DNA of 32,805 bases from Flavobacteriales bacterium (lineage in GTDB: Bacteria > Bacteroidota > Bacteroidia > Flavobacteriales_D > Sanyastnellaceae), in NCBI GenBank assembly GCA_023264155.1, contig JALQTD010000009.1, forward strand, positions 1 through 32,805, in the 5' to 3' direction. The translations under genes were made by a program, and so were the position numbers. The notes under the pieces are model-generated. The model was not told the origin of the DNA, did not search any database, and saw only the letters and a program-made list of their open reading frames with translations. Below are positions 2,569 to 27,123 of the stretch, in pieces (position 1 is the first letter of the stretch; every line of letters starts with the position of its first letter).

Positions 2569-5500
2569 ATGAACCTCAGCCGGTTGATTTGGGTTTGGAT
2601 GGCGGTGGTAGGGGCCTTTCAGGTCGCTCCGGCGGTGGCGCAGCGCGTGGTTCGGGCGGATCACGCACCGAGGGGCGCTGTTTTTATTCCAAATGGCAAC
2701 CAATGGCCGCAGGAGGTGGTGGGGCGCATGGACCTTTCCACGGGTTGGTTGTGGCTCGATCGCGGGGGGTGGACGGCCGAAGTGCGCGGTCCGGGGTATG
2801 AAATCTTGTCGCAGCACGGCACGCCGTCGGCTTTGGCTTCGCATGTTTGGCGGGTGCGGTTTGAGGGGGGTGCGGCGGATGCTCCTTCGGAGTGGCGGGG
2901 GCGTCGATCGGCCGAGCGGGTGAACTATTACCTGTCCGATGACCCTGCGGAATGGGCGGAAGGGTTGGTGCCCGCGGCGGAGCATTCGCGCGAGGTGTGG
3001 CCGGGGGTGCAGGCCGTGATGCGCGGAGGGCGCAAGGTGAAATACGAGTTCAAGGTGGCGCCGGGGGCGGATCCGTCGGTGGTGGTGTTGCGGCATGAGG
3101 GAACGACGCCGGTGTTGCAGGCCGACGGTTCGCTGCTGCATGTGTTGGGCCCGCAGGAAGCGCCGTGGGGCAGCATTGTGGAGGGGGTTCCGTTTGCGTA
3201 CCAAATGAACGGTTCCCGCATCGAGGAGGTGGTCTGCTCCTACGTCGTCGACGGCCCGCGCGTCCGCTTCGAGCTCGGCCCGTACGACCCCGACCGCGAA
3301 CTCGTCATCGATCCGGACCTCGTGTTCGCGACTTACATCGGCAGCACGGCGGACAGCTGGGGCGTAACCGCGGGATACGACGACGACGGCCGCCTGATCG
3401 GCGGGAGCGGCGTCCTGGGGGCCGGCTACCCTACAACCCCGGGAGCTGTCAGCACAACTTATGCAGGGGGCACCTTCGACATCGGCATCACGTACTTCTC
3501 GGCGGATGGATCCGACGTGGAGGTGAGTACCTACATCGGAGGTTCCGAAATGGAATACCCGCACAGCATTGTCAACGATGCCGAGGGCGACATTTTCATC
3601 ATGGGGACCACGGGCTCGGCGAATTTTCCGGTAACGGCTGGGGCGTATGATGCGACGTACAATGCGGGGCCGTTGGTGAATTTGGCTGGATACCACTTCT
3701 ACGGACAGCACAACAACGGGTGCGACTTGTACGTGGTCAAGCTGTCGGGCGCGACCGGGGCGATGCTCGCCGGCACCTTCGTCGGCGGGACGGGCAACGA
3801 TGGGATCAACATCGCCACGGAGCTGAACTACAATTACGGGGACGTCTGCCGGGGGGAAATCGCGGTGGATTCGGAGGGGCGGCCGTGGGTGGCGTCGACC
3901 ACGCGGAGCGCCGATTTCCCGCTCGTGCAGGCCTTCGACCCGGCGCTGGGTGGGGCGACCGATGCGGTGGTGTTCCGGCTGTCAGCGGATTTGGCGGATC
4001 TGGAGTTTTCGAGCTACCTCGGCGGATCGAACGACGATGCGGGGTACGCCCTGCAGTTCGCTTCGGACGGTTCGGCGGCGTACATCACGGGGGGGACGCG
4101 GAGCACGGATTTCCCGGGCACGGCGGGCGGCGCACAGCCGGCGCATGCCGGGGGCATCGACGGGTTTGTGACGCGGCTGGTTCCGGCGGGCGACGGGAGT
4201 TGGGATCCGGATGGGGCCACGTATGCGGGTTCGTCGGCCTATGACCAGTGCTACTTCGTCCAGCTGGATACGGAGGACCGGCCTTACGTTTATGGCCAAA
4301 CCACCGGCACGTTGCCCCTCGTGGGCGCGGTTTACAGCGCGAATCCGAATGGGTCGAGCTTCGTGCAGCGGCTGGCTCCGGATTTGAGTGGCGTGGAGTT
4401 TCGGACGCGGGTGGGTTTGGCCCAAATCGGAATCGACATCTCCCCGACGGCCTTCCTCGTCTCCGATTGCGACGAAATCTACCTCAGCGGCTGGGGCGGC
4501 GACACGAACAACAACTCGCCGTACGCGGGTTCGTCCACCACATCGATGATGCCGACCACGCCGGATGCCGAGCAGCTCGGGACGGATGGGAGCGACTTCT
4601 GGCTCGGGGTGTTGGCGCCCGATGGCACGGATTTGACCTATGGTTCATTCTTCGGCGGTCCGTTTTCGAACGAGCACGTCGACGGAGGAACGTCGCGGTT
4701 CGATAAGGACGGCACGATTTACCAGGCCGTGTGCGCCGGTTGCGGGGGCGGAGACGACTTCCCGACGACGGACGGAGCGTGGAGTGAGCTCAACCTCAGC
4801 ACCAACTGCAACCTCGGGGTCTTCAAGTTCAACCTCGGGGCGCTCGTGGCGGACATCGACATCGAGGCGCCGGACGTGATTTGTCCAGGCGAGCCCATCA
4901 CGTTTGTGAACCAAAGCCTGGGCGGCAACACGTACGAGTGGTTCTTCGGCGACCTCAACACGAGCCTCGAGGAAAACCCGGAGTACACCTACCTCGAGAG
5001 CGGGGAGTGGGATGTGATCTTGGTGGTCAGTTCGGATGCGGGGTCCGAGGGCTGCCTTGAGCCGGATACGGCCTTTGCTACGGTGTTCGTCGAGTCGCTG
5101 CCGACGCCTTCGGTCGATGAGGTGGGCCCGATTTGCGACGGCGAGTCTGTTCAATTGCAAGCCTGGGGCGGCGAAACCTTGACGTGGCTGCCTGACCCGA
5201 CCCTCGACGATCCTTCGAGCCCCACCCCTACCGTGACCCCGACAGAGACGACGACCTACACGGTGGAGGAAGAAAATGCGTGCGGCGCAGCGACGGCTTC
5301 GGTTACCGTGACGGTTGGGGTGCTCGAGGTGGAGGCGACCCCCGTGGCTACGTCGATTTGCCTCGGCGACGTGGTGGAGATCGGGGTCAGCGGCGTGGAG
5401 CCGGGCGCGGAAGTGGTTTGGTCCCCCACCGGCGGCCTCGGTTCGCCCACTGCCGCCACTACCTCCGCTTCGCCCACCGAAACGACGCTCTACACGGCGC

Positions 5501-6522
5501 TGGTCACCGATGCCATCGGGTGCGAAGGCGAGGCGACCGTCAACGTGACCGTGGTGCCTTCGGCGCCGGGGGGGGAGGTGTATCCGGATGTGACCTTGTG
5601 CGAAGGGCAGGGGACGTGGCTGACGGCTTCGGAAGGGGACACGTACCTGTGGTCGCCGGCGGATTTGGTCAGCAATCCGCTGGCTCAGGAGGTCTATGTG
5701 CAGCCCGGTGTGGAGACGACGTTTTCGGTGGCGATTGCGAATTTGTGCGGGGTGGGCGTGGATTCGGTGACGGTCAATTTCGTGTCGCCGGAGGTGTCGG
5801 CCGCGGGGGGCGGGTGGATGTGCCGAGGGGAGACCATGACCTTGGAGGCCTCGGAAGGGGTGGTGTATTCGTGGCAGCCCGCGGCCTTGTGTGGTACGCC
5901 TTCGATGCAGGCCACCACGGTTTTTCCGGTGGAGAGCACCACGTTCACGGTCTTTGTGACGGATGCTTTCGGGTGCACGGCGAGCAGCACGCTGGAGGTG
6001 GGGGTTTGGCAGCCGCCTTACGTGGATGCTGGGCCAAACCGCGAACTCGACTGGCTCGATGACGCCCGCCTTTTCGGCACGGCCGAAGGCGATTCCTCCT
6101 GGTGGAGTCCGGCCGAGCTCCTGAGCTGCTCGGTGTGCCCGACCCCCGAACTCCTGTCCTCCGAGCCCGGCTGGTACGTCCTCTCATCCATCTCGGACGA
6201 GGGTTGCATCGGCCGCGACAGCGCCTTCGTTGACGTGTACTACCCGATTTACGTGCCCAACGCGTTCACCCCCAACAACGACGGGGTCAACGACGCATTT
6301 TTCGTAGAAGGGGTGGCCCCCCGCGGGTACCTGATGGAGATCTACAACCGGTGGGGCGCCTTGGTGTTCCGGAGCGAGGATCCGCTCGAAGTTTGGCAAG
6401 GCAACGACCAGCAATCGGGAGGGGAGCACTATGTTCCGGATGGGGTGTACTCGTGGCGCGTGCGCTACGAATTGCGCGACGGTCCGCGGTGGGCGCAGGG
6501 ACACGTGACGTTGATTCGCTAA
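2569..6522 (+). CDS. Giant secreted T9SS cargo: DUF7948-like/SBBP propeller, PKD, Ig-like repeats, type B sorting domain
   Basis: This 1317-residue protein should be exported by Sec and then sent through the type IX secretion system to the cell surface or outside. Order seen: signal peptide about 1-25, ending AVAQ; an N-terminal domain with FIPNGNQWPQEVVGR, typical of the DUF7948 family; a region of about residues 245-740 with repeated YIGGS/YLGGS and DFP segments like SBBP beta-propeller repeats; a PKD domain near 765-850; four tandem Ig-like units (about 845-1145); then a C-terminal domain from about 1223 opening VPNAFTPNNDGVNDAFF and containing EIYNRWGALVF, diagnostic of the type B (gliding-motility-associated) T9SS sorting domain. 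Function of the cargo is unknown; adhesion or surface-layer roles are typical of such architectures. Base composition swings along the gene (see findings). It seems to be its own transcript, with the next promoter after its stop. Confidence 0.9.
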   Translation: MNLSRLIWVWMAVVGAFQVAPAVAQRVVRADHAPRGAVFIPNGNQWPQEVVGRMDLSTGWLWLDRGGWTAEVRGPGYEILSQHGTPSALASHVWRVRFEGGAADAPSEWRGRRSAERVNYYLSDDPAEWAEGLVPAAEHSREVWPGVQAVMRGGRKVKYEFKVAPGADPSVVVLRHEGTTPVLQADGSLLHVLGPQEAPWGSIVEGVPFAYQMNGSRIEEVVCSYVVDGPRVRFELGPYDPDRELVIDPDLVFATYIGSTADSWGVTAGYDDDGRLIGGSGVLGAGYPTTPGAVSTTYAGGTFDIGITYFSADGSDVEVSTYIGGSEMEYPHSIVNDAEGDIFIMGTTGSANFPVTAGAYDATYNAGPLVNLAGYHFYGQHNNGCDLYVVKLSGATGAMLAGTFVGGTGNDGINIATELNYNYGDVCRGEIAVDSEGRPWVASTTRSADFPLVQAFDPALGGATDAVVFRLSADLADLEFSSYLGGSNDDAGYALQFASDGSAAYITGGTRSTDFPGTAGGAQPAHAGGIDGFVTRLVPAGDGSWDPDGATYAGSSAYDQCYFVQLDTEDRPYVYGQTTGTLPLVGAVYSANPNGSSFVQRLAPDLSGVEFRTRVGLAQIGIDISPTAFLVSDCDEIYLSGWGGDTNNNSPYAGSSTTSMMPTTPDAEQLGTDGSDFWLGVLAPDGTDLTYGSFFGGPFSNEHVDGGTSRFDKDGTIYQAVCAGCGGGDDFPTTDGAWSELNLSTNCNLGVFKFNLGALVADIDIEAPDVICPGEPITFVNQSLGGNTYEWFFGDLNTSLEENPEYTYLESGEWDVILVVSSDAGSEGCLEPDTAFATVFVESLPTPSVDEVGPICDGESVQLQAWGGETLTWLPDPTLDDPSSPTPTVTPTETTTYTVEEENACGAATASVTVTVGVLEVEATPVATSICLGDVVEIGVSGVEPGAEVVWSPTGGLGSPTAATTSASPTETTLYTALVTDAIGCEGEATVNVTVVPSAPGGEVYPDVTLCEGQGTWLTASEGDTYLWSPADLVSNPLAQEVYVQPGVETTFSVAIANLCGVGVDSVTVNFVSPEVSAAGGGWMCRGETMTLEASEGVVYSWQPAALCGTPSMQATTVFPVESTTFTVFVTDAFGCTASSTLEVGVWQPPYVDAGPNRELDWLDDARLFGTAEGDSSWWSPAELLSCSVCPTPELLSSEPGWYVLSSISDEGCIGRDSAFVDVYYPIYVPNAFTPNNDGVNDAFFVEGVAPRGYLMEIYNRWGALVFRSEDPLEVWQGNDQQSGGEHYVPDGVYSWRVRYELRDGPRWAQGHVTLIR
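5101..6000 (+). repeat. Four tandem Ig-like protein repeats inside the T9SS cargo gene
   Basis: Four units of about 75 residues each begin with a hydrophobic-Cys-x-Gly signature (ICDGES, ICLGDV, LCEGQG, MCRGET). Each continues through a tryptophan-proline strand (TWLPDP, VWSPTG, LWSPAD, SWQPAA) and ends in a TTT/TTL-type strand before the next unit. They are degenerate at DNA level, so they are domain repeats and not recent DNA duplications. Confidence 0.75.
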
Positions 6523-6565: not shown

Positions 6566-7588
6566 ATGGCCTTCATCGATTCCCATCTTCACCGGTTGGT
6601 TTTGGTCCACGATTGCTTGGTGATCCCAGGCTTGGGGGGCTTTGTGTGCAACCAACAGCCGGCGCGCTTTGACGAGGCGGCGAATGAATTGGTGCCGCCG
6701 CGGCGGGCGATCCAGTTCAATGAGCGGTTGCTGCACAACGATGGGGTGCTGGCCCACGCCGTTGCGGTGGCCGAGGGGATGCCGTATGCGGCGGCGTTGC
6801 AAGCGGTGGAAGAGGAGGCTGCGCAGCTGCGCCAAACCCTGCATCACCAACGCTCCATCTCCCTACCCCATGTAGGCCGGCTCTTCATCGGCGAAAACGG
6901 CGCCACTCAATTCATGGCAGAAGCGGAATTGGAGCGCCTCCTGAGCGGCTTCGGTTTGCAGCGCATCCCCCTGAAGCCGGTGGTGCGCCCTGTCGAGGAG
7001 ACTCCCGTCGTGGCGATTTCAACGCCGGTCCGCTGGCCGCGCATCGCAGCTGCCATCGGCCTGCCGTTGATTGCCGGTGGCATGTGGTGGATGAGCGCAA
7101 CGGGCGAAGTGGACGCGCTGAGCTTGGTACCCCGTTGGGACCGTCCTGCGGCTACCACGGCTTATGCACCGGCTGCGCCGATCGAGCTGCTGCCCGCGTT
7201 GGCGGATCGCCAGGGGTATGAAGCGGTCATGGACCACGAGGGCGAAGCGGTGTTGCGCTTTGATTTTGAAGCGGACGATTTGTCGCCTGAAGGTGTGCGC
7301 ATTTGGGTCGGCGATGCCCATGCCGAACCGGCCACTCCTGAGCCGGCTCCTGCACTGACTTGGGACGCCTCGGCCTTCGCCTTGGTGGCGGGTGCCTTCT
7401 CTCAAGAAGCCAACGCCCAAGGCCACGCGGCTCAACTGGCCACTTCCGGTCTTCAACCCGAAATCCACCGCATCGGCGCCTTGCATTTTGTTACGGTTGG
7501 CCTGTTCACCGTGGAAGGTGACGCCCGTGCGGCACTCGCTCATGTGCGCTCGGTCGGGCACGAAGCGGTGTGGATGAAGCGGTTGTGA
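6566..7588 (+). CDS. HU-CCDC81 domain / transmembrane / SPOR domain protein
   Basis: The 340-residue protein has three parts. Residues 1-120 match the bacterial HU-CCDC81 pair of domains seen in Bacteroidota, with VIPGLGGFV, VPPRRAIQFNERLLHNDG and ISLPHVGRLFI. A single membrane segment follows at about 160-176 (IAAAIGLPLIAGGMWWM). A C-terminal SPOR-like domain at about 269-340 (ALVAGAF ... VTVGLFT) would bind denuded septal peptidoglycan. The expected topology is cytoplasmic N-terminus and periplasmic SPOR domain, which suggests a link between a cytoplasmic, possibly DNA- or filament-binding module and the cell wall at division. That link is inference; no member function is established here. 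Its stop overlaps the next gene by up to 19 nt. Confidence 0.85.
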   Translation: MAFIDSHLHRLVLVHDCLVIPGLGGFVCNQQPARFDEAANELVPPRRAIQFNERLLHNDGVLAHAVAVAEGMPYAAALQAVEEEAAQLRQTLHHQRSISLPHVGRLFIGENGATQFMAEAELERLLSGFGLQRIPLKPVVRPVEETPVVAISTPVRWPRIAAAIGLPLIAGGMWWMSATGEVDALSLVPRWDRPAATTAYAPAAPIELLPALADRQGYEAVMDHEGEAVLRFDFEADDLSPEGVRIWVGDAHAEPATPEPAPALTWDASAFALVAGAFSQEANAQGHAAQLATSGLQPEIHRIGALHFVTVGLFTVEGDARAALAHVRSVGHEAVWMKRL

Positions 7589-16533: not shown

Positions 16534-17871
16534 TTATCCGAATTGGCCGGTAAAGACACGGAACAAGTCGTTCCCCATGGCCAGGACCATCACCAACAGG
16601 AGGAAGATGAAACCGGCGACTTGCGCAATTTCCAGCAGCTTTTGAGGCGCGGGTTTGCCCACGATCATTTCGTAGAGCAAGAACATCACGTGTCCGCCAT
16701 CCAAAGCCGGGATGGGCAACAAGTTCATGAAGGCGAGGATGAGGGAGAAGAAGGCGGTGTTCCGCCAAAAAATCTGCCAATCCCACCCGGCATCAAAGAC
16801 GCTGCCGAACGTGACGAGGCTGCCCACTTGGGTCACCCCCGACTTGGACGCAAGGAAACGCAGCGAGAGAGCGTATTCGCGGATGGTTCCCCAAGCGGTG
16901 GTGAACCCGCCCGAAATGGCTTCGCCGATGGAATAGTCGATGTGTTCAAAAGCGATTTCGGGGAACGCCGAAAACGACGCGCTGATGAATCCCAAAGCAC
17001 CGGTGGAATCCGTCATGACAGCGAGTTCACGCTGCGTGCCAAGGGAATCCTCCACCACCGCAACGAACGGGGTGCTGGGGTTGGCACGTAAAGTACCCAC
17101 GACCTCGTCGAAGAACAGGGTGGGCCGACCATTCAGGGAAACGAACCGATCGCCTGGATGCAGTCCCGCCTTTTCCGCGGGGGACGCGGGGGAAATGCGT
17201 TCAACGACACAAGGACGACGGGGCAGGAATGGCCGCCGCACGCTGCGATCCACCATGTCCTGTCCGAGGTCACCCGACATGGGCAACGTGATTTCGGCTC
17301 CGTCGCGCAGCACTTTCACTTCAGTTACGTCTTCGAAAAAGAGGGCTTGTCGCAGGGCGTCGAAGTCGGGTGCTTTTTGGCCATTCACCTCCAACACGTG
17401 ATCCCCGTTCTCGAGACCCCAATGCGCCACCTCCTCATTGACTTCGATGCCGTAAGGCATGTTCTGCATCGGCAACACGTCTTCCCCCCAAACCCCGAGG
17501 ACGCCCGCGTAAATCACAAAGCCGAGGATCAAGTTCACGATGATTCCGCCCAGCATGATGATCAGCCGCTGCCATGCGGGCTTCGAGCGGAACTCCCAGG
17601 GTTGGGGTGGTTGCGCCATTTGCTCCGTGTCCATGGACTCGTCAATCATTCCGGAAATCTTCACGTAGCCGCCCAGGGGAAGCCACCCCAACCCCCACTC
17701 GGTTTCCCCGATTTGTTTTTTGTACAGCGAAAACCAAGGGTTCATGAACAGGTAGAACTTCTCGACACGCGTGTTGAAGCGCCGCGCCGCGAGGTAGTGC
17801 CCCAATTCATGGAGGAAAATCAAGAGTGAAAGGCTCAAGAGAAGTTGAGCTGCTTTGATGAGGGCGACCAT
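16534..17871 (-). CDS. rseP: RIP metalloprotease RseP (site-2 protease)
   Basis: A zinc intramembrane protease of the inner membrane that cleaves anti-sigma factors and remnant signal peptides. The 445-residue product has the active site HELGH (H21, E22, H25) in TM1, LPLGGYVKISGM, then a membrane segment (MLGGIIVNLILGFVIYAGV). Two PDZ-like periplasmic domains follow (about 145-210 with LENGDHVLEVNG, and 225-300 with AGLHPGDRFVSLNG). The C-terminal NLLPIPALDGG supplies the third zinc ligand D391. A perfect -7 box lies 20 nt upstream of its ATG. The bond with the downstream antiporter is by transcription only. In many Bacteroidota rseP follows dxr; here that gene is absent. Confidence 0.95.
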   Translation of the reverse strand: MVALIKAAQLLLSLSLLIFLHELGHYLAARRFNTRVEKFYLFMNPWFSLYKKQIGETEWGLGWLPLGGYVKISGMIDESMDTEQMAQPPQPWEFRSKPAWQRLIIMLGGIIVNLILGFVIYAGVLGVWGEDVLPMQNMPYGIEVNEEVAHWGLENGDHVLEVNGQKAPDFDALRQALFFEDVTEVKVLRDGAEITLPMSGDLGQDMVDRSVRRPFLPRRPCVVERISPASPAEKAGLHPGDRFVSLNGRPTLFFDEVVGTLRANPSTPFVAVVEDSLGTQRELAVMTDSTGALGFISASFSAFPEIAFEHIDYSIGEAISGGFTTAWGTIREYALSLRFLASKSGVTQVGSLVTFGSVFDAGWDWQIFWRNTAFFSLILAFMNLLPIPALDGGHVMFLLYEMIVGKPAPQKLLEIAQVAGFIFLLLVMVLAMGNDLFRVFTGQFG

Positions 17872-17899: not shown

Positions 17900-17985
17900 G
17901 GGTGAACGCAGGGTGCCTGCCGCAGGGTTGCAACCTTTAACGGACCTTTGCGCCGATTCGGCGGCTTCGGTTGCCGCGGTTTGCC

Positions 17986-18001: not shown

Positions 18002-20470
18002 ATGGGAGCGAAACAGAAAAAGAAAGCAGCACCGAAGAAGGGCGCTTATCGGTTCGGGCGCCAGGCGCGTTGGTTGTGGTTTTTGGGCCTCGCTCCGTTG
18101 GCGGGTTTGGCGGGCTTGGTGTTGTTGGCTTCGTTGGGCGAATTGCCGGACACGGAGACGCTCGCCAATCCAAAGACCGATTTGGCAACACGGGTGTACT
18201 CGTCTGATGGGCGGGTCATCGGGCGCTACTACGCCGAGAACCGCTCAGATGCGCGGTATGATGAGCTACCAGAACACTTGGTCGGCGCCTTGATCAGCAC
18301 GGAAGATGCGCGTTTTGAGTCGCACAGTGGGTTGGATTTCATCGGTTTGGCTCGGGCCATTGCTTTCATGGGATCGCGCGGCGGGGGCAGCACCATCACG
18401 CAGCAGCTGGCCAAATTGCTCTTCACCGAGTCGTACGACCAAACCAGCCTCATCGAACGGGCGGTATTGCAAAAGCCCCAAGAATGGATCATCGCTGCCC
18501 GCCTTGAGCGCCACTACACAAAGGGTGAAATCGTCGCCCTCTACTTGAATCGATACGATTTTCTAAACCAAGCGGTGGGCATCAAATCGGCTGCGAACAT
18601 CTACTTCGACAAGGACGTTGATGAGTTGAACATTCAGGAGTCTGCGATGCTTGTGGGCATGCTGAAGAACAGTTCGTTGTTCAATCCGATGCGTCGGCCG
18701 GAAATGGTTTTGGACCGCCGCAATGTGGTGTTAAGCCAAATGGTCAAGTACGACCGCCTGACCCGTGACGAGTACGACTCCCTCAAGGTGTTGCCCCTGG
18801 GGCTCAATTTCCAACGCGTCTCCCACGACGAAGGCATTGCGCCCTATTTCCGCGAGGAATTGCGCGGGGAATTGAAGCGCCTCCTTGCGGCAAAAGACGC
18901 AAACGACCAGTTCATCATTCGCAAAGCCGATGGCGCCCCATATGATCTGTACCGAGATGGCATTCAGGTGTTTACCACCATTGACAGCCGGTTGCAGAAA
19001 GCAGCGGAAGAGGCGGTTTATGAGCACTTGGCAGGCGAATTGCAGGCGACTTTGGACCGGGACTTGAGGCGCCGGTCTAAATCGGAGTGGCCCTTTTACT
19101 CGGGCATTGACCGCAAAACGCGGGACGCCATCATGGACCGCGCGGTGCGTGAGAGCGAGCGGTATTTGGTTGCTTCTGGCAAGCTGTGTCCGGAGTGCAA
19201 GCGGCCCGGTTTTTACGTGCGCAAGCAGTCGAGCGAAGGCGGTGAGCCGCGTTGGCTTTGCGACCCTGACAAGGGGGGGTGCAGCCACACGTGGCCACGG
19301 CGATCGGAGTCGGAAATCGAAGAAGCGTTCAACACGCCGGTGCCCATGCGTGTGTTCGCGCATGGCGGGGCCGTTGACACCGTGATGACCCCCTTGGATT
19401 CCATTCGCTACCGCAAGCATTTCCTGCATGCGGGGCTGATGTCCATCGAGCCGCAAACCGGTCACATCAAGGCCTGGGTGGGCGGCATCGATTACCGTCA
19501 CTTCAAGTTTGACAACGTTTCGCAAAGTCGCCGGCAGGTGGGGTCGATATTCAAGCCCTTCGTTTACGCTACAGCGCTGCGCTATGGCATGAACCGGTGC
19601 ACCGAGATCCCGAACCAAAAAATCTGCATCGAAATGCCGGATGGCCAGCCCGATTGGTGTCCGGACAATTCCGATTTTGAATACGGTGACATTGTGACCC
19701 TCGAATACGCTTTGGCGAATTCGATGAACACGGTGACGGCAAAACTCATCAAGGACTTCGGTGCTCGAAGGGTAGCCGAGTTGGCCTATGCCTTGGGCAT
19801 CGAGTCGGAAATCCCCGAAGTGCCTTCCATTGCGCTCGGAGCAGCCCAATTGACCCTGAAGGAAATTACGTCAGCCAACGCGGCGTTGGTCAATGGCGGC
19901 GTGTATGTCCGACCGACTTACATCGCACGCATCGAGGACAAGTTTGGCAACGTCATTTACTCGCCTGAACCGGAGATTCACCAAGGACTTGACGCCCGCA
20001 CCGCGGCGACCATCGTCGAAATGATGAAGGGGGTGGTCGATGGCGCTTACAGCATTGAGACGGGTAAGCGCAAGGGAACGGGGATCCGCCTCCGCATGGA
20101 CCTTGATTCGCGCGATTACGATGGCCTGACGATTCCGATGGCCGGAAAAACGGGGACGACGCAGAGCAACACCGATGGGTGGTTCATGGGGTTGACCCCG
20201 GACTTGGTGACCGGGGTGTGGGTCGGCGCCCAAGATCCAGCGGTCCGTTTCAGCACCACCACCTACGGGCAGGGAGCCAACACGGCCTTGCCGATTTTTG
20301 GGTTCTACATGAAGAAGGCGCTGGCGGATCCGCGGATCGGTCTGAGCGGCGATGATTTCACCTTGCCGGCGTCGATGGGCGTGGATTCACTTGATTGTGA
20401 AGCGGGCCAAAACCTGCGCCTCCCACCCTTCGGCAACCCGAACGATGTGGACGATGGCTTGTTTGATTAA
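18002..20470 (+). CDS. Class A penicillin-binding protein (GT51 + transpeptidase) with a four-Cys insert
   Basis: This bifunctional enzyme polymerises and cross-links peptidoglycan in the periplasm. The 822-residue product has a basic cytoplasmic tail (MGAKQKKKAAPKKG), one membrane anchor at about 23-45, and a GT51 glycosyltransferase with E101 in EDARFESHSGLD and GGSTITQQLAK. The transpeptidase has S515-I-F-K518, S574-M-N576 and K716-T-G718. Between the two domains lies an insert with C396-P-E-C399 and C420-x6-C427, arranged like a zinc ribbon. The ATG at 18002 is chosen over an upstream TTG at 17948 because the tail and anchor then have PBP1A proportions and the promoter box lies between them. 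Identified as PBP1A-type (mrcA/ponA); it is followed 18 nt later by scoA. Confidence 0.95.
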   Translation: MGAKQKKKAAPKKGAYRFGRQARWLWFLGLAPLAGLAGLVLLASLGELPDTETLANPKTDLATRVYSSDGRVIGRYYAENRSDARYDELPEHLVGALISTEDARFESHSGLDFIGLARAIAFMGSRGGGSTITQQLAKLLFTESYDQTSLIERAVLQKPQEWIIAARLERHYTKGEIVALYLNRYDFLNQAVGIKSAANIYFDKDVDELNIQESAMLVGMLKNSSLFNPMRRPEMVLDRRNVVLSQMVKYDRLTRDEYDSLKVLPLGLNFQRVSHDEGIAPYFREELRGELKRLLAAKDANDQFIIRKADGAPYDLYRDGIQVFTTIDSRLQKAAEEAVYEHLAGELQATLDRDLRRRSKSEWPFYSGIDRKTRDAIMDRAVRESERYLVASGKLCPECKRPGFYVRKQSSEGGEPRWLCDPDKGGCSHTWPRRSESEIEEAFNTPVPMRVFAHGGAVDTVMTPLDSIRYRKHFLHAGLMSIEPQTGHIKAWVGGIDYRHFKFDNVSQSRRQVGSIFKPFVYATALRYGMNRCTEIPNQKICIEMPDGQPDWCPDNSDFEYGDIVTLEYALANSMNTVTAKLIKDFGARRVAELAYALGIESEIPEVPSIALGAAQLTLKEITSANAALVNGGVYVRPTYIARIEDKFGNVIYSPEPEIHQGLDARTAATIVEMMKGVVDGAYSIETGKRKGTGIRLRMDLDSRDYDGLTIPMAGKTGTTQSNTDGWFMGLTPDLVTGVWVGAQDPAVRFSTTTYGQGANTALPIFGFYMKKALADPRIGLSGDDFTLPASMGVDSLDCEAGQNLRLPPFGNPNDVDDGLFD

Positions 20471-23886: not shown

Positions 23887-24246
23887 ATGAATGCATTGCG
23901 AAACAAAGTCCAGCTGATTGGACGGTTGGGAAAGGACCCTGAGTTGGTCCAGTTTGAGGAGGGAAAAACCAAGGCGAGCTTCCCCCTTGCGACGAACGAA
24001 GTGTACAAAAACCCATCGGGTGAGCGCATGGAGCGCACCCAATGGCACGACGTCGTGGTGTGGGGAAAACTCTCGGAAGTGGCGGCAAGCTACCTCCAGA
24101 AAGGCTCGGAAGTGGCGGTTGAGGGGCGGTTAACCTACCGCACTTACGAGGACGCCGAAGGCCATACCCGCTACGTTACAGAGGTGGTTGCGAGCGAGTT
24201 GTTGTTGCTCGAGAAGCGATCTGAGGGGAAGGAAGTGGAGGCCTGA
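23887..24246 (+). CDS. ssb: Short single-stranded DNA-binding protein
   Basis: The 119-residue protein is a single OB fold, from NKVQLIGRLGKDPELVQ through KASFPLATNEV, TQWHDVVVWGKLSEVAASYLQKGSEVAVEGRL, to TRYVTEVVASELLLLEK. These are SSB family signatures for ssDNA binding as a tetramer. It ends soon after the fold (EGKEVEA) and has no long linker or acidic DxDxPF tip, so it would not recruit partner proteins as canonical SSB does. A second, full-length SSB elsewhere in the genome is likely. A strong hairpin terminator follows at once, so this is a single-gene transcript. Confidence 0.9.
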   Translation: MNALRNKVQLIGRLGKDPELVQFEEGKTKASFPLATNEVYKNPSGERMERTQWHDVVVWGKLSEVAASYLQKGSEVAVEGRLTYRTYEDAEGHTRYVTEVVASELLLLEKRSEGKEVEA

Positions 24247-24252
24247 GGTGGT

Positions 24253-24297
24253 GGGGACGTCTGGAGGGGTGCTACCCCCGAGGGCGTCCCCTTTTTT
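24253..24297 (+). terminator. Rho-independent terminator of ssb
   Basis: GGGGACG at 24253-24259 pairs with CGTCCCC at 24285-24291, with an additional inner GGGGT/ACCCCC pairing, followed directly by TTTTTT at 24292-24297. It starts 7 nt after the ssb stop. Confidence 0.85.
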
Positions 24298-24377
24298 GGT
24301 CCTTGCTGCGCTTTCGAACCGAGGTGGTCGGTTGGTTGTTTCAGTGTTGTTGGTATGGTGGACGGTCCGCGCCCGCC

Positions 24378-24385
24378 TATCTTTG
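24378..24385 (+). promoter_or_regulatory. -7 promoter box of the sdhCAB operon
   Basis: TATCTTTG is an exact TAnnTTTG match, 21 nt before the sdhC ATG at 24407. TTG triplets at 24347-24352 lie 25-28 nt upstream, slightly beyond the usual spacing. The 160-nt gap also contains the ssb terminator. Confidence 0.6.
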
Positions 24386-24406
24386 CAACGAACGAACTGA
24401 GACACC

Positions 24407-25111
24407 ATGAGCAATAAGGGCTTGTTTCCGACTTCCTTGTCGAAAAAGTATGCGATGGCCGCGACCGGCCTGTTTCTGTGCCTCTTCTTGGTCGGGCATT
24501 TGTTGGGGAACCTGCAATTGTTCATCCCAGGAGCGGAGGGCAAAGAGGCGTTCAACGCCTATGCGTTGTTTATGACCACCTTTCCGTTGGTGAAGGTGCT
24601 GAGTTACCTGACCTATTTCGGTATTTTGCTGCATGCCGTGGACGGCATCTTGCTCGCCCGTGCGAACCGCGCCGCGCGCCCGGTGCGTTACGCGAAAGAG
24701 AACGGCGCTGCAAACGCGGGATGGAGCAGCCGCAACATGGCCTTGCTCGGGACCATCGTGCTCGCCTTCATCGCGGTGCACATGCAGAACTTTTGGTACG
24801 TCATGCATTTTGGTGAACCCGGAATGTACAGTTTGGCCTCTGGAGAGGAGGTGAAGGACTTGCACCAAGTGGTCATGGACTTTTTCGGTCCAGCAAACAG
24901 CATGGCCATCGCGGCGGTAGCCTTCTATTTGCTGGCGCAGGCAGCCATCGGGTTCCACTTGTGGCATGGGTTTGCTAGCGCTTTCCAATCGTTTGGCTTG
25001 CGTTCTGCGAAATACACGCCATGGATTGAACGGGTGGGCCAAGCGTTCAGCGTTTTGGTGCCTTTGGCCTTTGCGGTCATTCCTGTTTACCTCTACATCT
25101 CTCAGCATTAA
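24407..25111 (+). CDS. sdhC: Succinate dehydrogenase/fumarate reductase cytochrome b subunit
   Basis: The membrane anchor of complex II, carrying quinone and haem sites. The 234-residue product has five hydrophobic segments, the B-type (Wolinella/Bacillus-like, single anchor subunit, two haems) topology: [21 protein letters not shown] near residue 15, [56 protein letters not shown] and a last segment near the C-terminus. Histidines in GHLLG, LLHAVDG, VHMQNF and GFHLWHG are the likely haem ligands. It starts the operon and is followed 14 nt later by the flavoprotein gene. Confidence 0.93.
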
Positions 25112-25125
25112 TTCACGACGCAGCC

Positions 25126-27123
25126 ATGTTAGAATCGAAAATTCCTCAAGGCCCGATTGCCGAAAAGTGGACGAATCACAAGAATTCGATCCGGTTGGTC
25201 AATCCAGCGAACAAGCGGTTGATCGACGTGATTGTCGTGGGAACGGGATTGGCTGGAAGTTCAGCCGCGGCCTCCTTGGCCGAGATGGGGTACAACGTGA
25301 AGGCCTTCTGCTTTCAAGACTCCCCACGCCGTGCACACTCCATTGCTGCGCAGGGTGGTATCAATGCCGCTAAGAACTACCAAAACGACGGCGATTCCAC
25401 CTACCGTTTGTTCTATGACACGGTGAAGGGTGGTGACTACCGGAGCCGCGAAGCGAACGTGTACCGTTTGGCCGAGGTTTCCGCGAACATCATCGACCAA
25501 TGCGTGGCGCAAGGGGTTCCGTTTGCACGGGACTATGGTGGCCTGTTGGACAATCGCTCCTTCGGTGGGGTGCAGGTTTCGCGGACATTCTACGCCAAAG
25601 GCCAAACCGGACAGCAGCTGTTGTTGGGAGCGTATTCCGCCCTCAGCCGCCAAATCTCAAAAGGCAAGGTGCAGTTGTTTAACCGTCACGAAATGATGGA
25701 TGTGGTGATGGTGGACGGGAAATGCCGTGGCATCATTGCCCGCAACCTAGTTACTGGCGAAGTGGAGCGCCACGGCGCGCACGCGGTGGTGTTGGCTTCT
25801 GGTGGATACGGAAACGTGTTCTTCTTGAGCACCAACGCCATGGGCTCCAATGTGTCGGCGGCTTGGAAGGCGCATAAAAAAGGCGCGCACTTTGCTAACC
25901 CGAGTTTCACGCAGATTCACCCCACTTGCATTCCGGTTTCGGGTTCGCATCAGTCGAAGCTGACCTTGATGTCCGAGTCCCTCCGGAACGATGGGCGCAT
26001 CTGGGTACCGAAGAAGAAAGAGGATGCTTTGGCCATTCGGGAAGGGCGATTGCGTCCGGTTGATTTGGCCGAAGAAGACCGCGATTATTACCTCGAGCGC
26101 CGGTACCCAGCGTTCGGTAACTTGGTTCCCCGAGACGTGGCTTCGCGGGCAGCGAAGGAGCGGTGCGATGCGGGCTTCGGTGTGAATGAAACGGGGGAAG
26201 CTGTGTTTTTGGACTATGCCAGTGCCATCGAACGTTACGGCAAGACCGAGGCCAACATCCAAGGCATCGATTCGCCGTCCAAAGCGCAAATCACCGAACT
26301 CGGAAAGGCTGTGGTCAAGGCGAAGTACGGCAACCTGTTCGATATGTATCAGCAAATCACTGCTGATAATCCGTACGAGACACCGATGAAGATTTACCCT
26401 GCGGTGCACTACACCATGGGTGGCTTGTGGGTTGACTACAATTTGATGACGGCTGTTCCCGGTCTTTACGCAGCAGGAGAGGCGAATTTCTCAGACCATG
26501 GTGCGAACCGACTCGGGGCGTCGGCCTTGATGCAAGGCCTTGCTGATGGCTATTTCGTGCTGCCATACACCATCGGCGATTACTTGGCAGATGACATCCG
26601 GACCGGACCGATTTCCACGGATCATCCGGCTTTCGTTGAAGCGGAAAAATCCGTTACCGAACGCATCAACCACTTCTTGAACAACAACGGGGATACCCCG
26701 GTGGACGATTTCCACCGCCGGTTGGGTTTGATCATGTGGAACAAATGTGGCATGGCGCGGAATGCGGAGGGATTGAAAGAGGCGATTCAAGAAATTCGGG
26801 CGTTGCGGGAGGAGTTTTGGCAAAAGGTCCGCGTGCCGGGAACGGGCGATCAATACAATCCTGAACTGGACAAGGCAGGTCGGGTTGCCGACTTCCTGGA
26901 GTTGGGTGAGTTGATGTGCGTGGATGCGCTGGCCCGCGAGGAATCATGTGGTGGCCACTTCCGCGAAGAGCATCAGACCGAAGAGGGTGAGGCCCTTCGG
27001 AATGACGAAGAATTCACGTTTGTGTCGGCATGGCAGTACACAGGCGACCCTTCCGAGGCGAAGTTGGAGAAAGAAGAATTGGTTTACGAAAACATCGAGC
27101 TGAAGCAACGCAGCTACAAGTAA
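25126..27123 (+). CDS. sdhA: Succinate dehydrogenase/fumarate reductase flavoprotein subunit
   Basis: The catalytic subunit oxidises succinate to fumarate (or the reverse) on the cytoplasmic face of the inner membrane. The 665-residue product has the FAD-binding loop [12 protein letters not shown] (from 38), the flavin-attachment region HSIAAQGG with H71, THE substrate-site segments FTQIHPT and [13 protein letters not shown], and [30 protein letters not shown]. The helical domain with [12 protein letters not shown] and the C-terminal ELKQRSYK tail belong to the longer Bacteroidota form. It sits between sdhC and sdhB with gaps of 14 and 7 nt. Whether the complex works as oxidase or reductase cannot be told from sequence. 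Confidence 0.96.

Follow-up and report, generated by a model that had tools for sequence, protein, structure and literature searches.

A zinc-ribbon-like insert between the catalytic domains of class A penicillin-binding proteins in Bacteroidia

In E. coli, the ODD domain of PBP1A binds LpoA and the UB2H domain of PBP1B binds LpoB, and a docking function has also been proposed for group-specific regions of class A penicillin-binding proteins (PBPs) (PMC4632607). Another lineage-restricted insert, the GI domain of C. difficile PBP1, is needed for function by a mechanism that the source leaves unsettled (PMC12539705). Structural zinc in PBPs has a precedent that we found in class B enzymes only, namely A. 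baumannii PBP2 and C. difficile PBP2, PBP3 and SpoVD, where Asp, Cys and His ligands lie inside the transpeptidase domain beside the active site (PMC9974482, PMC9334274). Zinc ribbons such as those of RPB9/TFIIS, eIF2-beta/eIF5, topoisomerase I and the recombinases are cytoplasmic or nuclear and mostly related to nucleic acids or transcription.

The PBP1A-like protein described here, encoded in a 32,805-nucleotide stretch of Flavobacteriales DNA (the window), carries a four-cysteine insert that can be set beside each of these systems. The insert shares with ODD and UB2H that it is non-catalytic, lies in or near the inter-catalytic region and is limited to some lineages (PMC4632607), but it is smaller and probably metal-stabilised. 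With the GI domain it shares a small, globular build and a position close to the GT-TP linker in a class A PBP; the available part of that source describes GI from some Bacillota families only and mentions no zinc site, and we compare the two by description without suggesting homology (PMC12539705). The insert would resemble the class B sites in giving a periplasmic or extracellular PBP a structural zinc whose ligands and spacing vary, whereas it stands as a separate unit between the domains. Finally, the insert shares with the known zinc ribbons two cysteine knuckles about 20 residues apart, predicted short beta strands, and Gly and aromatic residues at corresponding positions, but it sits inside a periplasmic cell-wall synthase. 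No description of a ribbon in a class A PBP was found in the open-licence full-text literature; fold and enzyme are each known, but we found no account there of the two together, of how this pairing has spread through Bacteroidia or of its gain and loss in the manner of a module.

The synthase and its four-cysteine insert

The PBP gene (Table 1) opens with an ATG, and a start at the in-frame TTG at 17948 would lengthen the protein by 18 residues; ATG numbering is used unless stated. No second full-length copy was found in the genome it comes from, whose completeness is 87.6%. Pfam places both catalytic domains in one chain, with PF00912 at 172.2 bits (cut-off 27) and PF00905 at 79.5 bits (cut-off 22.1), and the catalytic motifs are intact, as E101 of GT51 together with S515-x-x-K518, S574-x-N576 and K716-T-G718 is invariant across a 36-row alignment; the protein is by these features a class A PBP. 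The best NCBIfam model, PBP_1a_fam (TIGR02074), scores 454.2 bits, below its curated cut-off of 508.75, and for this reason we call the protein PBP1A-like and not a member of TIGR02074. By the positive-inside rule, all domains that follow the single N-terminal helix would sit in the periplasm. The full-length AlphaFold2 model (pLDDT 79) aligns to A. baumannii PBP1a with a Z of 46.8, an alignment dominated by the catalytic domains.

Table 1. Features of the PBP gene, in window positions (residues in ATG numbering)
Feature	Position	Strand	Basis
Class A penicillin-binding protein (PBP1A-like), 822 aa	18002..20470	+	ORF, Pfam, NCBIfam, alignments, AlphaFold2 model
Single N-terminal membrane helix, aa 21-44, after Lys/Arg-rich N-terminus	18062..18133	+	sequence, model helix 21-44
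GT51 transglycosylase domain (Transgly), aa 70-247	18209..18742	+	Pfam PF00912, E 9.5e-51
Zinc-ribbon-like insert, core aa 393-431, G-K-x-CPEC-x-RP ... C-x6-C-x3-W	19178..19294	+	sequence, alignments, model
First knuckle C396-P-E-C399	19187..19198	+	sequence; C-x2-C in all intact inserts
Second knuckle C420-x6-C427	19259..19282	+	sequence; C-x2-C, C-x4-C or C-x5/x6-H in other families
Transpeptidase domain, aa 482-734, S515-x-x-K518	19445..20203	+	Pfam PF00905, E 3.3e-22; invariant motifs
C533, C542, C553 in transpeptidase domain	19598..19660	+	alignment of 127 proteins

No domain is called by Pfam between Transgly and Transpeptidase, and neither ODD nor UB2H appears among the Pfam matches of the protein up to E 10. 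It is in this interval that the motif C396-x2-C399-x20-C420-x6-C427 lies, with its codons at 19187-19189, 19196-19198, 19259-19261 and 19280-19282. A sequence-only reading of this DNA had placed these four cysteines between the GT51 and transpeptidase domains; its residue numbers are exact and the Pfam boundaries bear out the placement, whereas the span it gave, 19190-19282, ends correctly but begins one codon late. The ligands (396-427) fall outside the transpeptidase domain and at least 88 residues before S515, and thus do not match the class B type of zinc site.

Elsewhere in the window, an M50 site-2 protease with PDZ domains (RseP-like; 16537-17871, minus strand) adjoins the PBP gene in divergent orientation. 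The product of 6566-7585 (plus strand) combines two CCDC81-like bacterial HU domains with a SPOR domain and may link DNA-binding-like with peptidoglycan-binding parts, and 2569-6519 (plus strand) encodes a probable type IX secretion (T9SS) cargo of 1317 aa with DUF7948, PKD and a CHU_C type IX secretion signal.

Fold, ligands and the case for a metal

The insert is modelled at pLDDT 78-86 within the full-length AlphaFold2 structure and, when taken alone (67 aa, 20 rows), at pLDDT 88 with three short strands. VIA-align returned 33 rows at Z of at least 2 for this small beta domain, nearly all of them zinc-ribbon proteins, among them eIF5, eIF2-beta, RPB9, RPA12, C11, Rpp21, TopoI and Dof. The top match reaches a Z of 3.7 with an rmsd of 2.6 over 45 residues, a low value that is usual for such a small domain, and it is the consistency of the match list that supports the predicted fold, the scores being low. 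For the isolated insert, no Foldseek match was significant (best E 0.24). In a profile search of PDB sequences, GATA fingers ranked at the top, the best sequence having an E of 1.4e-5 as the sum over its two fingers; zinc-binding ribosomal proteins came next, and no solved PBP was among the matches. No Pfam zinc-ribbon model exceeded its cut-off; the window insert came closest to Zn_ribbon_recom (20.5 bits against 25.3), and other members of the insert family gave scattered weak matches to several zinc-ribbon families. One of 32 members weakly matched a rubredoxin-like Pfam model (E 0.036) and the site has two CxxC-type knuckles, as would suit an iron site of the rubredoxin kind. The zinc-ribbon Pfam matches are, though weak, more numerous and better, the structure matches are mostly zinc ribbons, and neither a C-x6-C knuckle nor Cys-to-His variants are rubredoxin-like, so that we regard iron in place of zinc as very improbable.

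Conservation among relatives bears on the ligands directly. All 60 genomes searched around the window hold a matching PBP, and the fetched loci of near relatives follow the pattern GK-x-CPxC-x-RP-xx-YI ... C-x6-C-xxx-W. Across 26 relatives, where the insert is only 37-70% identical, every one of the residues G, C, P, C, R, P, Y, C, G, C and W is retained, a conservation far above chance. The wider tree set comprises 60 proteins with inserts of 28-61 residues, and 58 of these retain all four ligands; G393 and R401 are identical in 58 of 58, and Pro/Arg402, Tyr405 and Trp431 are kept in most. The two exceptions are L166, truncated and with two cysteines, and L009, an otherwise intact gene in which the last cysteine has become arginine, although the other 8 of 8 PBPs read in its genus keep four. 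The cysteines are thus co-conserved in Bacteroidia, as the zinc-ribbon reading had called for, and loss has almost always been of the whole module, with L009 as the one instance of the single-ligand loss that was held to count against a metal site. A one-off assembly artefact was considered and ruled out, as the insert recurs in a genome of the same genus at 86% identity and in dozens more, and a thioredoxin-like CPxC redox motif was ruled out because the proline varies (CGNC, CANC, CHNC).

The spacing of the ligands is informative. The first knuckle is C-x2-C in every intact insert, while the second, in the tree set, is C-x6-C in 30 proteins, C-x4-C in 21, C-x2-C in five and C-x5/x6-H in two. 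Such shifts in spacing around constant ligands are usual in zinc knuckles. In family f13, C-x2-C...C-x5-H was found in 6 of 6 PBPs read, from two genera, and family f12 also has His for Cys at the fourth ligand; histidine can be a zinc ligand but cannot form a disulfide.

These observations have to be weighed against the possibility that, in an oxidising periplasm, the four cysteines are paired in two structural disulfides and hold no metal. The PBP is an exported protein, the periplasm of Bacteroidota does form disulfides, as documented in Flavobacterium (PMC12635249), and of 20 relatives eight were found to have a DsbA-family protein and none VKOR. The same PBP moreover has a second probable pair, C542-C553, of which both positions are cysteine in 54 of 127 aligned Bacteroidia PBPs and neither in the other 73, never one alone; this is the pattern expected of an evolving disulfide pair, and that of the ribbon cysteines is different. 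The histidine at position four in f13 and f12 would strand one cysteine unpaired, the four-ligand set is kept although the second knuckle changes its spacing, and four genomes of 97-99% completeness with intact ribbons (G003, G005, G010 and G012) have neither DSBA nor VKOR at cut-off, though other oxidases are possible there. With the structural matches being mostly zinc ribbons as well, we hold paired disulfides to be improbable. Because the second-knuckle spacing varies, f13 has exchanged Cys for His and the C542/C553 pair evolves differently, a metal is favoured, and the four ligands very probably hold one metal ion, most likely zinc, that would stabilise the mini-domain; L009, with one ligand gone from a gene otherwise intact, is the counterpoint. 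The insert is thus likely a structural zinc ribbon in the periplasm, and the disulfides, redox sensor or metal sensor that the sequence-only reading had listed beside zinc binding appear less likely.

Separately, C533 and C799 (codon 20396-20398) are present together in 123 of the 127 aligned PBPs, and C533, C542, C553 and C799 probably form disulfides near the transpeptidase active site.

Distribution and history of the module

A profile search for the insert in 395 Bacteroidia genomes found it in 42. The matches of 39 of the 42 lie within reading frames of 488-911 aa and 30 of 30 fetched ones are PBPs, which speaks against a domain common to other proteins. PBP1A-like proteins with a four-ligand insert occur in 17 of about 65 sampled Bacteroidia families, nine of them in the order of the window (f1, f2, f3, f4, f6, f8, f10, f12 and f13) and eight in other orders (f17 in part, f21, f25, f35, f36, f45, f58 and f66). 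The insert is missing from three families of the window's own order (f5, f9 and f11), from most other families read, and from the proteins of a Chitinophaga-labelled MAG and of Sphingobacterium, and f7 keeps a truncated remnant with two cysteines. In a phylum-wide sample of 395 genomes, which was pre-filtered and held few carrier families, PBPs with the insert came from the window's family f1 only, together with one 37-aa frame that we take as a chance match; for wide occurrence outside Bacteroidia this is a weak negative.

The insert occupies one fixed column range throughout, with 41-61 residues in place of a loop of 13-16, and nearly all ribbon-less proteins have a clean 13-16-residue loop at the site. 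On a tree of 120 PBPs calculated with the insert columns removed, the ribbon falls mainly on one well-supported branch (SH-aLRT 99) whose 59 rows comprise 49 with the ribbon, nine with none and one partial; several lines within it have dropped the whole module, and the small family f35 stands outside. Seven changes of state suffice when the partial ribbon is counted as a ribbon, against a mean of about 40 for shuffled labels. Constraining f35 to group with the other ribbon PBPs costs 72.5 log units (p-AU 0.068), and a single origin is disfavoured but not rejected. Since several lineages do without it, the ribbon is not required for class A PBP catalysis as such.

Three further families (f22, f24 and f74, proteins L187, L241 and L220) hold unrelated inserts of 80-108 residues at the exact ribbon site, charged, helix-like and lacking cysteine, and from these the site appears to be a place for module addition. 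Ribbon-bearing and ribbon-less PBP1A-like genes coexist in seven genomes (G038, G039, G045, G049, G050, G056 and G057), and those of G056 stand in tandem (L231 with L180, G056:C11:21760-24030 and 24211-26826). The tandem duplicates L261 and L260 (G787:C125:113-2482 and 2685-5087) are PBPs that each carry the ribbon in its Cys-Cys-Cys-His form.

A model for the role of the ribbon

We propose a model in which a zinc-stabilised periplasmic ribbon is used as a docking or regulatory module of the synthase, and we put the probability of this reading as a whole at roughly 0.6. A small C4-type ribbon would be built into the hinge region between the GT and TP domains on the periplasmic side, where one metal ion, most likely zinc, would stabilise the mini-domain. 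A partner, perhaps an outer-membrane lipoprotein or a division or elongation protein, may then bind to the surface of the ribbon, or the ribbon may instead fix how the two catalytic domains are placed relative to each other. In either case its role would parallel those of ODD and UB2H, domains unrelated to it, in PBP1A and PBP1B of E. coli. The docking or regulatory part is suggested by analogy and by position, the ribbon lying in the stretch in which lineage-specific modules of class A PBPs are found. Indeed, the alignment to P. aeruginosa PBP1a runs up to residue 357 and resumes from 494 (TTG numbering, +18 relative to ATG), and facing this stretch, which holds the ribbon, the P. aeruginosa protein has an unalignable region of similar length. 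Taken by itself, a role of the ribbon as a lineage-specific module for docking or regulation has about an even chance of being correct. A bolder version, that this is an old periplasmic zinc-ribbon family which would make the main bifunctional synthase of many Bacteroidia zinc-dependent and would dock a candidate envelope regulator as the counterpart of the Lpo-PBP1 systems, is one we put forward as tentative.

The ribbon may, however, do no more than stabilise a surface loop, with neither partner nor regulatory role. The zinc site of A. baumannii PBP2 is mainly structural (PMC9974482), and the whole-module losses indicate that the ribbon can be dispensable, but its near-invariant non-ligand residues and its retention over many families suggest more than a stapled loop, and we judge this explanation rather unlikely. 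Somewhat less likely still is a redox or zinc-availability switch, in which oxidation or the loss of zinc would unfold the ribbon and change the activity of the synthase. Exposed C4 zinc sites can be redox-sensitive, and the ribbon-less paralogue present in seven genomes could in principle substitute under zinc scarcity. A redox-sensor role has also been speculated for the active-site zinc of the C. difficile class B PBPs (PMC9334274). In f4 and f10, however, the paralogues belong to old, separate lineages, and the tandem arrangement in G056 argues against opposite regulation of the two copies.

The model of a zinc-stabilised docking or regulatory module bears on the control of class A PBPs in Bacteroidota, which is not described in the literature we found. 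A conserved domain in the place where E. coli has an activator docking site would give a direct handle on that control, and in many Bacteroidia the ribbon is a candidate site for the control of wall synthesis or for docking. Furthermore, if the ribbon holds zinc, wall synthesis would be tied to the supply of that metal in a phylum and a PBP class other than those reported so far.
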